A DNA stretch of 64,000 nucleotides from Lentisphaerota bacterium. Lineage in GTDB: Bacteria; Verrucomicrobiota; Lentisphaeria; Victivallales; Victivallaceae. The translations under genes were made by a program, and so were the position numbers. Within the stretch, counting starts at the first letter, position 1; each line of letters starts with the position of its first letter. The notes under the pieces are model-generated. The model saw nothing but the letters and a program-made list of their open reading frames with translations, made no database searches and was not told the DNA's origin. Shown one piece after another: positions 7,812 to 63,196 of the stretch. The stretch is taken from positions 1 to 64,000 of the forward strand of contig SUWD01000012.1 in assembly GCA_015061685.1 (NCBI GenBank), given 5' to 3'.

Positions 7812-7941
7812 TGTGACGTACATGACTGCGAAAACGTCCGCATATTTGCCAAGAGATTGCCCGCAATGCCCCACCGCCTCGTCGCGGCGTAGAGCAACGG
7901 AGACGGAAGGAAAGATTTTTTACAAAAAATGAGACAATAAC
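7812..7941 (+). mobile_element. truncated copy of the MITE-like element (right end only)
   Basis: From TGACGTACATGACTGCG near 7814 to the terminal GAGACAATAAC at 7941 it matches the right part of the 27466-27746 element. It also carries a CGGCGTAG-GCAACGGAGACGG piece found in the 62972 copy. No left terminus and no target duplication are visible. The intact terminus lies 25 bp before the start codon of the zinc-ribbon gene. Confidence 0.8.
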
Positions 7942-27368: not shown

Positions 27369-27465
27369 GGTTTATCTGAAAATAAAAGAATCTGCCGCCG
27401 GATGCGATATGCTTGGCAGCTTTGGCGGGGAGAGAACAGGAATTTTTCAGTTTTATTTTTTTATT
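27369..27465. other. gap before the MITE copy
   Basis: No gene is visible. The T-rich run at 27451-27465 contains the left 8-bp target duplication (27458-27465). The whole interval 27369-27789 has no coding sequence other than repeat. Confidence 0.6.
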
Positions 27466-27746
27466 GATAATGTCCCGAATTTTGTGAAACTCGTAACAGA
27501 AGCTTATAAACAAACACTTTTGTTAACGTATAAAACATATCACATAAGTTGTGATTTGTCAAATCGGCAAGCACGGGTTCGATCCAACCGGTGGATGCAG
27601 TGTGAGGCAAGGTCGCAGACAAATCAAGGCGGATGAGCAGGAGTGTACTGACGTACATGACTGCGAAAACGTCCGCAGATTTGCCAAGAGATTGCCCGCA
27701 ATGCACCACCGCAGGAAAGATTTTTCACAAAAAATGAGACAATAAC
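27466..27746 (+). mobile_element. MITE-like element, full 281-bp copy
   Basis: Left end GATAATGTCCCGAATTTTG and right end ...AAAAATGAGACAATAAC form imperfect terminal inverted repeats (GATAATGTC versus GTTATTGTC). The 8-bp sequence TTTTTATT flanks both sides (27458-27465 and 27747-27754). Internal marks are the palindrome ATCACATAAGTTGTGAT-like block near 27539 and TTAACGTATAAAACAT. It is longer than the other copies by an insert near 27595-27710. No transposase, so non-autonomous. Ends resemble IS256-type termini, an inference from memory. The right end lies 44 bp before rpe. Confidence 0.93.
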
Positions 27747-27789
27747 TTTTTATTATACATAATTAAAACAATATAAAGGAAACTGTATT

Positions 27790-47567: not shown

Positions 47568-47589
47568 TGCCTTTGATCCATAATGAAAA

Positions 47590-47777
47590 GTTATTGTCTC
47601 ATTTTTTGTGAAAAATCTTTCCTTCCGTCTCCGTTGCACTACACCGTGACGAGGCGGTTAGATCGAACCCGTGCTTGCCGGTTTGACAAATCACAACTTA
47701 TGTGAGTTTTATACGTTAACAAAAATGTTATGTTTATAAGCTTCTGTTACGGGTTTCACAAAATTCAGGACATTATC
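47590..47777 (-). mobile_element. MITE-like element, 188-bp copy in reverse orientation
   Basis: Starts GTTATTGTCTCATTTTTTG and ends CAGGACATTATC. Flanks AATGAAAA (47582-47589) and AATAAAAA (47778-47785) agree at 7 of 8 positions, an aged target duplication. It contains TTTGACAAATCACAACTT and TTTATACGTTAACAAAAATG as in the other copies. It sits in the gap between two convergent terminators, the only copy not just before a start codon. Confidence 0.92.
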
Positions 47778-47779
47778 AA

Positions 47780-47817
47780 TAAAAAAAATCCCGTACCGTT
47801 TTGAACGGTACGGGATT
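47780..47817 (-). terminator. terminator of the 2-oxoacid oxidoreductase operon
   Basis: On the minus strand AATCCCGTACCG pairs with CGGTACGGGATT (47787-47798 and 47806-47817), loop seven bases, followed by seven T (47780-47786 on plus as A). Confidence 0.93.
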
Positions 47818-50767: not shown

Positions 50768-50841
50768 GGCGTGGTAGCCAAGCGGTTAGGCAGCGGTCTG
50801 CAAAATCGCGTAGATCGGTTCGACTCCGATCCACGCCTCCA
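50768..50841 (+). tRNA. trnC: tRNA-Cys (GCA anticodon)
   Basis: A 74-nt cloverleaf. The acceptor arm GGCGTGG/CCACGCC has seven pairs, discriminator T then an encoded CCA. Anticodon stem GCGGT/ATCGC with loop CTGCAAA gives anticodon GCA. T arm ends GATCGGTTCGACTCCGATC. U73 and GCA are both cysteine identity elements. It stands alone and has its own promoter and terminator. Confidence 0.96.
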
Positions 50842-54914: not shown

Positions 54915-55163
54915 GTCCGATCAAGGCGAGCGAAGCCGCCGCGACTTTCCGCTTTTCTTTGCTTACTTGTTAGAGGAATTTGCTGCAAATCCTCATTGAT
55001 CTTAAAAGTCCTCTGCTTCGATCTGCAAAAGGGGCATTTTCGGCAGTTACCACTTTGGGTAGCTGCCTCAAATTACCTTTCACAGCTCATCGCAGATGAT
55101 CTTTTAATCTTCACTGAATGATTTTTGCAAATACCTCTCTTTTCCCGTGAAAAGAAAGTAAGT
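54915..55163 (+). repeat. 249-bp structured repeat, copy 2
   Basis: Second copy of the 51127-51374 repeat. The hairpin GGCAGTTACC / GGTAGCTGCC is kept with a changed loop. Its right edge coincides with the last base of the ABC-F stop codon. No gene lies between 54450 and 55162. Confidence 0.92.
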
Positions 55164-57133
55164 CAGGAGTTGATGCGGTCGTTTTCCTGCCGGAGAGCTT
55201 CCAATTCCATGGCTTGTTCTTCCCACTTGCTCTCGGTTTCGGTGATTTGTTTGTCGAGTGCGGCAAGTTCGGTATTGAGTTTGGCGAAATCGACTTTTTC
55301 ACCGCTGGCGAGTTTGGCGACGATGACCGCTTTTCTGGAGGATTGCTGATCGAGGAGAGCTTCGAGTTTCTCCACCTCTTTTTTGGCTTTGTTGAGCTGC
55401 TGCTGGATGGCGGATCTTGCCTGGGCTCTTGCCCGGCGGCGGTCTTTGGCGGAGATGGTATTTTCTCCGTTGGCATCGGGGAAGGCCCTGCTGACAGAAT
55501 TCATCGGATCGGCGGCATTGAGGGCAGCTGATTTTTCCAGATAGTAGTCATAGTCTCCGTAGAATTTGGTAACTTTGCCGGGGGCGACCTCCCAGACGGT
55601 CTGGGCGGTATTACGGACGAATTCGATATCGTGGCTGACCATGGCGACGGTGCCGGAATAGTTTCTGACGGCTTCCTGGAGCAATTCTCTGGCGGCGAGG
55701 TCGAGGTGAGTGGTCGGCTCGTCAAGGATCAGGAAATTGGGCGGATTAACGAAAATACGGGCCATCTGGAGACGGATCTTTTCGCCGCCGGAAAGCACTC
55801 CGCAAGGTTTTTTCATCGCATCCCCCGAGAATCCGAATGCCCCGGCGACATTGGCGACATTGGCTGTGGAAGCATTGGGGGGCAGAGCAGCTCTGACGGC
55901 ATCGTAAACGGACAACTCATCATTGACCAATTCGGCAAATTCCTGTGCCTGATAGCCGATCTGGATGTGGTGACCCGGCACTATTCTGCCGGACAGAGGT
56001 TTCAAAATTCCGGCGATAAGTTTGAGCAAAGTGGTTTTACCCATACCGTTGTAACCGATGATCGCCAGTTTTTCACCGGCAGGGATATCCAGAGAGACAT
56101 CCTCAAAGAGCAGTTTATCGGGGGTATATCCGAAAGAGAGATTTTCGATCCGGGCGGCTTCTGCTCCGGCAGGCGGCGGTTCGGGGAAGCGGATAACTCC
56201 ATGGTAATCGAGGGATTCAGTCAATTTGACATCTTCGATCCGGTCAAGTTTTTTCTGGGCACTTTTGGCGGCGGCGGCTTTGGTACTTTTTGCCCGGAAA
56301 CGGTCGATCATTCTTTCGAGTTGTTCTTTTTTATGATCGGCATTGCGTTTGGCTGCTTCGAGGGAAATTTTCCGCTGTTCTCTTTCCCGGCGGTAAAAAT
56401 CGTAATTTCCGGCGTAACGGGTGACGGTTCCGCGGTTGACTTCGAGGGTGATATCTGCAAGTTTCCGCAGCAGGAAGCGGTCGTGGGAAATCAGGAGCAA
56501 AGTTCCCTGAAAATTGGCGAGGAACCGGCAGAGCCACTCCACCGCCGGGATATCCAGATAGTTTGACGGCTCGTCCAGCAGCAGTATATCCGGCCGGGAG
56601 ATCAGAACTCTTGCCAGAGCTGCCCGCATCTGCCAGCCGCCGGAAAAGGAGGATAATTTATCATCAAGTTTTGCCACCGGGAAACCGAGACTGGTCAAAG
56701 CCTGTTTTGCTTCGACGTCGAGGTGATAAGCTCCGAGATGTTCAATGGAACTTTGGAGGAAGCCGTGACGTTTGAGCAAGGTGTCGAGCAGGGCATCGTC
56801 CTCACACTCTGCCATCAGGTTTTCGATTTTCTCCAATTCGGCGGAGTAGGTTTTCAATTCCGGGATGGCATCGGAGGTAAATTCCAGAAGCGATCGTCCG
56901 AGATCACATTCAGCGATATGCTGACGCATGATACCCAGACGGCTGTCTTTGGGGATGACGATTTCGCCTGAATCCGGTACGATTTCGCCGGTGACCATGC
57001 CGAAAAGGGTACTTTTACCGGCACCGTTGGGGCCGACGACACCGACTCTTTCGCCGGTATTGATCCGGCAGTTGACATCTTTGAGGATGTATTCTCCGGA
57101 ATAGGTTTTTGAAATATTTTTAAAGTCGATCAT
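55163..57133 (-). CDS. ABC-F ATPase (Uup/YdiF-like)
   Basis: A 656-residue protein with two ABC domains and no membrane segments. First Walker A GPNGAGKS (34-41), signature FSGGWQMR, Walker B LLLDEPSNYLD; second Walker A YNGMGKTT, signature LSGGEKIRLQ, Walker B LILDEPTTHLD. The interdomain linker holds the MIDRFRAKSTKAAAAKSAQ helix, and a charged coiled coil (about 570-655) ends it. ABC-F proteins act at the ribosome, in rescue or antibiotic protection. The MITE copy ends five bases before the ATG, so the natural leader was replaced by element sequence and the ribosome site is weak. Confidence 0.94.
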   Translation of the reverse strand: MIDFKNISKTYSGEYILKDVNCRINTGERVGVVGPNGAGKSTLFGMVTGEIVPDSGEIVIPKDSRLGIMRQHIAECDLGRSLLEFTSDAIPELKTYSAELEKIENLMAECEDDALLDTLLKRHGFLQSSIEHLGAYHLDVEAKQALTSLGFPVAKLDDKLSSFSGGWQMRAALARVLISRPDILLLDEPSNYLDIPAVEWLCRFLANFQGTLLLISHDRFLLRKLADITLEVNRGTVTRYAGNYDFYRREREQRKISLEAAKRNADHKKEQLERMIDRFRAKSTKAAAAKSAQKKLDRIEDVKLTESLDYHGVIRFPEPPPAGAEAARIENLSFGYTPDKLLFEDVSLDIPAGEKLAIIGYNGMGKTTLLKLIAGILKPLSGRIVPGHHIQIGYQAQEFAELVNDELSVYDAVRAALPPNASTANVANVAGAFGFSGDAMKKPCGVLSGGEKIRLQMARIFVNPPNFLILDEPTTHLDLAARELLQEAVRNYSGTVAMVSHDIEFVRNTAQTVWEVAPGKVTKFYGDYDYYLEKSAALNAADPMNSVSRAFPDANGENTISAKDRRRARAQARSAIQQQLNKAKKEVEKLEALLDQQSSRKAVIVAKLASGEKVDFAKLNTELAALDKQITETESKWEEQAMELEALRQENDRINS

Positions 57134-57138
57134 AATTT

Positions 57139-57313
57139 GTTATTTATTGTCTCATTTTTTGTCTTCGTTGCACTACGCCCTGACAAGCCGGTTGGATCGA
57201 ATCCGTGTTTGCCGGTTTGACAAATCACAACTTATGTGATATGTTTTATACGTTAACAAAAATGTTTGTTTATAAGCTTCTGTTACGGGTTTCACAAAAT
57301 TCGGGACATTATC
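57139..57313 (-). mobile_element. MITE-like element, 175-bp copy beside the ABC-F start codon
   Basis: Starts GTTATTTATTGTCTC (a TTAT duplication within the usual GTTATTGTCTC) and ends GGGACATTATC. The 8-bp CATAATTT flanks both sides (57131-57138 and 57314-57321). The left duplication contains the ABC-F start codon. It lies between the kinase gene and the ABC-F gene, both on the minus strand. Confidence 0.94.
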
Positions 57314-57336
57314 CATAATTTACTGTTTTTATCAGA

Positions 57337-62847: not shown

Positions 62848-62971
62848 ATAGTGCAAAATTCCCGGTTTTACGGTTGTAAAAAGCCTCATTTCAGGATATA
62901 TTATATATTGGTTTGTTCCGTTCTGTCAACAGAAATAAAAAAGCTGATACAGTATTATGTTTTTATAATTT
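62848..62971. other. gap before the last MITE copy
   Basis: No gene or clear terminator. Contains AATTCCCGGTTTTACGGTTG and a TATATTATATATTGG run. The left target duplication TATAATTT is at 62964-62971. The whole gap 62848-63196 is without coding sequence. Confidence 0.5.
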
Positions 62972-63173
62972 GATAATGTCCCAAATTTTATGAAACCCAA
63001 GCAGGAGCTTATAAACAAACATTTTTGTTAACGTATAAAACATACCACATAAGTTGTGATTTTTAACCCCGGCAAACACGGGTTTGATCCAACCGGTGGA
63101 TTCCGTCTTCGCCTTACGGCGTAGTGCAACGGAGACGGAAGGAAAGATTTTTTACAAAAAATGAGACAATAAC
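62972..63173 (+). mobile_element. MITE-like element, 202-bp copy
   Basis: Left end GATAATGTCCCAAATTTTA and right end AAAAATGAGACAATAAC, with exact 8-bp flanks TATAATTT (62964-62971 and 63174-63181). The middle lacks the insert of the 27466 copy but carries a GTCTTCGCCTTACGGCG-type hairpin. The right end lies 23 bp before the start codon of the final gene. Confidence 0.94.
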
Positions 63174-63196
63174 TATAATTTTCGGAGAAAGAATTT

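Follow-up and report, generated by a model that had tools for sequence, protein, structure and literature searches.

Bacterial MITEs such as the ERIC, RUP and Correia elements are short, intergenic sequences with a high copy number and strong hairpin potential. A partner has been described for ISH2 of Halobacterium, a MITE that is moved in trans by ISH8 (PMC10264941). ISH6, or p-MULT 2, belongs to the prokaryotic Mutator superfamily, within which it forms a family separate from IS256 (PMC3942029). Earlier work describes the family as occurring almost only in haloarchaea (PMC9208149, PMC3942029). Its published members duplicate AANATNTT (PMC3942029), and the duplication made by the Halobacterium element is 8 bp long (PMC10264941).

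Here we analyse a repeat in a Lentisphaerota bacterium that is best explained as a MITE family with ISH6-type ends, mobilised by an ISH6-family transposase acting in trans, a reading to which we assign a probability of about 0.9. Like ISH2, these elements are gene-less and carry the termini of an autonomous insertion sequence, and the described relation is the same; ISH2 differs in its transposase family (ISH8), its 10-bp duplications and its archaeal host. Shortness, intergenic sites, copy number and hairpins are shared with ERIC, RUP and Correia elements, which have other partner families and duplication lengths. Neither the kind of MITE nor the mechanism is new; within the literature searched, novelty lies in the host phylum and in the family of the partner, and no MITE driven by ISH6 was found there. 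The results place ISH6 as a Lentisphaerota element, with intact and high-copy forms, and connect it with a MITE family numbering about 100 copies in a genome. They also explain contig breaks in these drafts, V. vadensis included, by the repeat, and offer the A/T target as a testable basis for intergenic insertion.

Copies of the element in the window

Reading the sequence and searching it with the element ends, we recovered all four copies that the first-pass annotation had claimed in the window (the whole 64,000-nucleotide stretch analysed), each with the shared terminal inverted repeats (0 expected in shuffles). The left-end consensus GATAATGTCCNRAATTTTRTGAAA has four matches in the window, with 0 mismatches each, and the right-end consensus GTTATTGTCTCATTTTTTGT has five, again with 0 expected. 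The interiors hold no gene, and the 8-bp flanks are as described, three pairs being exact and one having a single mismatch.

Copy 1 (27466–27746, plus strand, left end at 27466) belongs to the 281-bp class, which outnumbers every other class genome-wide, and lies between the two halves of its target duplication, TTTTTATT, at 27458–27465 and 27747–27754. Its left terminal repeat GATAATGTCCCGAATTTTGTGAAA (27466–27489, plus strand) is of the ISH6 left-end type and its right terminal repeat GTTATTGTCTCATTTTTTGTGAAA (27723–27746, minus strand) of the ISH6 right-end type. Copy 2 is a 188-bp element at 47590–47777 (minus strand, left end at 47777), and its duplication reads AATGAAAA at 47582–47589 and, with one mismatch, AATAAAAA at 47778–47785. 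Copy 4, 202 bp long at 62972–63173 (plus strand), is flanked by TATAATTT at 62964–62971 and 63174–63181.

Copy 3, a 175-bp element at 57139–57313 (minus strand, left end at 57313), has CATAATTT on both sides, at 57131–57138 and 57314–57321. Here the earlier description needs a correction, as the right end carries a 4-bp insertion (GTTATTTATTGTC), and an addition is a fifth, 5′-truncated copy at about 7814–7941 (plus strand), which consists of the right half and right end only. The insertion of copy 3 hit the start codon of the open reading frame at 55163–57133 (minus strand), whose product looks, by its sequence, like an ABC-type ATPase: the ATG lies within CATAATTT at 57131–57138, and the duplicated 8-mer now stands on both sides of the element. 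In 11 of 11 relatives examined the gene adjoining copy 3 has no element beside it, and one relative, G008, retains a single CATAATTT where the duplication sits. The insertion of copy 3 is therefore lineage-specific.

Copy number and target sites across the genome

Searching the draft genome (2.94 Mb, 61 contigs, 93.75% complete) returned 99 left and 106 right ends, amounting to about 100 dispersed copies, with 72 end pairs within 1.2 kb and mostly 280–283 bp apart. Members of the 281-bp class are 88–99.6% identical to one another (median 94%). Duplications were counted in the stretches around the matched ends of 77 distinct end-paired elements. Exact 8-bp duplications flank 58 of the 77 and duplications with at most one mismatch flank 66, while an exact 9-bp match was found for none. 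Random re-pairing of the flanks gave a mean of 1.3 exact 8-bp matches and a maximum of 7 in 1,000 trials, so that the duplications first noticed in the window match far above chance genome-wide.

The view that insertion sites are A/T-only or nearly so likewise extends beyond the window: the duplications are 91% A/T, compared with 67% for the adjacent flanks and 50% for the window. Of the 58 sites, 37 combine A at position 2 with T at position 7, as against 22% of A/T-rich 8-mers from the window. Insertion occurred between open reading frames in 28 of 30 well-flanked copies. An apparent orientation bias relative to flanking genes in these 30 copies (15 ++ versus 4 −−) was not supported by a larger, cruder count (24 + versus 34 −), and we discarded it.

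The elements are mostly 148–640 bp long, have inverted ends and target duplications, lack genes, and are dispersed in high copy number; their ends are shared with an autonomous element, represented by two intact ISH6 copies described below. Taken with their spread in the genus, the ends, the 8-bp duplications and the copy number identify a genuine MITE family.

Longer classes of 421–639 bp contain nested repeat modules rich in GC, and several of the contig breaks in the draft are due to them; they were seen at the contig edges L219–L223 of this genome and in L054, L063, L065, L076, L082, L085 and L097. A 967-bp element at L148:3920–4886, which has the MITE ends and is flanked by an exact duplication of AATTTATT, is a composite of duplicated GC-rich repeats. 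We considered it as an autonomous copy and rejected it, as it holds no transposase; a 1,168-bp pairing in L108 also lacks one and is a chance pairing of ends across other genes.

Folding and conservation of the interior

Beyond the ends, the MITE interior has no recognisable relation to ISH6. Size classes from 148 to 640 bp differ by nested palindromic modules, and copy 1 contains the central palindrome of the 281-bp class, GCAGGAGTGTACTGACGTACATGACTGC, at 27637–27664 (plus strand). Folding of the 281-bp class is far stronger than that of its shuffled versions (z = −6.9), and one part of the element resembles a tRNA T-arm when the sequence is read by eye. Both features would suit RNAs of conserved structure, or a housekeeping RNA gene, in place of a transposon, yet folding is far weaker in the 202-bp copy (z = −2.7), and the roughly 100 dispersed copies have variable interiors and each its own 8-bp duplication. 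The only Rfam matches in the window are 5S rRNA and a tRNA, and the sole find of ARAGORN is a tRNA-Cys gene at 50768. The repeats match no Rfam family, and we regard an RNA identity as extremely improbable. Inverted repeats together with nested palindromes account for the strong fold, as they do in many MITEs.

Between species, conservation of the interior is highest in ATCACATAAGTTGTGATTTGTCAA, whose opposite strand carries a promoter-like site (TTGACA-17-TATGTT) that surrounds a palindrome and is directed outward through the left end. Elements were selected for this comparison solely on their ends, and the block came out as the top interior segment, by a modest distance and with some double counting. 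In copy 1 it lies at 27534–27562 (minus strand) and encloses the palindrome ATCACAACTTATGTGAT. This block, with its palindrome, occurs in all four window copies.

ISH6 as the probable partner element

Intact ISH6 elements turned up in two more genera of this bacterial family, at L259:1422–2871 (1,450 bp) and L260:1422–2872 (1,451 bp). Each is thus about 1.45 kb long and has a single transposase gene and an exact 8-bp duplication (AATTATTA in L259 and GAACCTCC in L260). The transposases, of 449 aa each, score 484.5 and 481.8 bits with the ISH6 transposase model NF041731, which has a curated cut-off of 240 bits, compared with 44.5 and 37.4 bits with the IS256 model.

The left end of both elements, GATAATGTCCCAAATTTTGTGA, is identical over 22 of 22 bp to the MITE left end in variants with A at position 12, and matches at 21 of 22 where that position is G. 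Their right end, GTTATTGTCCCAAATTTTGTGAAA, differs from its MITE counterpart at three of 24 positions and agrees at the remaining 21; the same correspondence (22/22 left, 21/24 right) holds for Victivallis vadensis, and the pair of ISH6 ends can be given in short form as GATAATGTCC/GTTATTGTC. Handedness is also kept between ISH6 and MITE, with GATAAT at the left end versus GTTATT at the right. Across ISH6-family ends, the agreement with the MITE is 20–22 of 24 positions on the left and 19–21 on the right. The MITEs also share with the ISH6 family an 8-bp A/T duplication, and the A2/T7 preference of their sites agrees with the ISH6 target AANATNTT; they differ from it in being mostly 150–640 bp long, without a transposase and with an unrelated interior.

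V. vadensis has about 20 copies of ISH6, with contig breaks located 95 bp in from either end of the element. When the contig edges on the left were matched by flank with those on the right, 15 exact 8-mers (14 distinct sites) resulted, with one pairing at 9 bp and two at 7 bp, a peak indicating that ISH6 duplicates exactly 8 bp there. The duplicated sites are A/T-rich and conform to AANATNTT: A1 occurs in 10 of 14, A2 in 13, A4 in 10, T7 in 13 and T8 in 8, whereas position 5 is mixed (T in 5 of 14). One complete but damaged copy lies at L211:106–1556, where two open reading frames match NF041731 at 4e-63 and 2e-72. The copies in the DSM 14823 assembly were seen at the ends of contigs L192–L211 and L239–L258, and their constant position, always 95 bp inside the element, explains many breaks of that draft.

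On this evidence, the MITE is a short, non-coding DNA bounded by asymmetric terminal inverted repeats of about 24 bp, and these repeats are ISH6-family insertion-sequence ends. A full-length ISH6 element would supply the DDE transposase in trans, which would recognise both MITE ends and move the element. Joining of the element to staggered 8-bp cuts at A/T-rich nAnnnnTn sites, mostly intergenic, followed by repair of those cuts, would then give rise to the 8-bp duplications.

The first-pass annotation had attributed mobilisation to an IS256-like (Mutator-type) transposase acting in trans. The MITE itself, the Mutator type and, as we infer, the action in trans stand; the IS256 family does not. 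There is some likeness: the transposase superfamily is related, the ends share GRTARYGTCC and begin, as the MITE ends do, with GATAA.GTCC / GGTAGTGTCC, and IS256 elements generate duplications of 8–9 bp, close to those of the MITE. They are present in few genomes of the genus, with PF00872 matches in 6 of 34 and in none of the most MITE-rich ones, and a search of the draft genome that carries the MITE gave no PF00872 match. Nor do the termini fit: the ends of IS256 elements in the genus, GATAACGTCCG..TTGCGCAC, match the MITE ends at 11–17 of 24 positions, against 19–22 for ISH6, and have subterminal TTGCGCAC in contrast to TTTTGTGAAA in the MITE. IS256 also shows no target motif (PMC3942029), whereas the MITE sites do. 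Given the absence of IS256 from this genome and from MITE-rich relatives, and the poorer agreement of its ends, we rejected it as the partner and consider its involvement very unlikely. The IS256 elements of the genus (L039, L041, L042, L044 and L048) are mostly broken, with ends GATAACGTCCG..TTGCGCACATTTTGAA / GGTAGTGTCCG; those of L039 are GATAACGTCCGAAAAATTGCGCAC and GGTAGTGTCCGAAGTTTTGCGCAC.

Source of the transposase

An intact ISH6 transposase was not found in the genome that carries the window or in MITE-rich relatives. A sensitive protein search detected a C-terminal ISH6 fossil at C23:2759–2863 (E = 2.3e-7), in which 99 bp, running up to the right terminal repeat, align at 76% identity. 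Three other genomes of the genus contain ISH6 fragments and a 728-bp deletion derivative, and such remnants are all that was found in the genus. The absence of an intact copy from the draft may be an assembly effect, since short-read assembly is expected to miss a multi-copy ISH6, as in V. vadensis. An active ISH6 in the same genome today is, moreover, not strictly required of a MITE. We infer that the supplying copy either has been lost from the lineage or lies within the unassembled fraction.

Loss would make the family a fossil here, amplified by ISH6 and left without its transposase, with copies persisting as intergenic elements and possibly kept for their promoter-like block. This is a variant of mobilisation by ISH6, and the two can hold together; we give it an appreciable, if less than even, chance. 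That the genome has a fossil as its only ISH6 and the genus only fragments is consistent with such a history, as is the rank of the promoter-like palindromic block as the most conserved interior segment across species. However, some copies are 99.3–99.6% identical and retain intact duplications, suggesting recent movement, and a draft that is 94% complete and split into 61 contigs has gaps in which a multi-copy ISH6 would land, as in V. vadensis.

Distribution among relatives

Among 34 genomes of the genus, about 20 carry the left end, with up to about 90 copies each, and the elements of these relatives are likewise flanked by 8-bp duplications. Outside the genus, the relatives sampled gave only stray left-end matches; L031–L035, which lie in other families of the order and differ from the left end by 2–3 mismatches, are unrelated loci. 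Named records with the end comprise V. vadensis DSM 14823 and Lentisphaeria or Lentisphaerae genomes obtained from gut samples, ruminant ones among them. One might picture the whole as an ISH6-powered MITE family, spread through a gut Lentisphaeria genus, in which a conserved outward promoter with a palindromic operator-like box (TTGACAAATCACAACTTATGTGATATGTT) at about 100 intergenic insertions could constitute a portable regulatory network, a proposal that we consider unlikely. V. vadensis also has a second short sequence, at L166:96–309 and L176:1–91, which joins the ISH6 left end (GATAATGTCCCAAATTTTGTGAAAGAATGG) to another interior and, judged from that end, is probably another non-autonomous ISH6 element.
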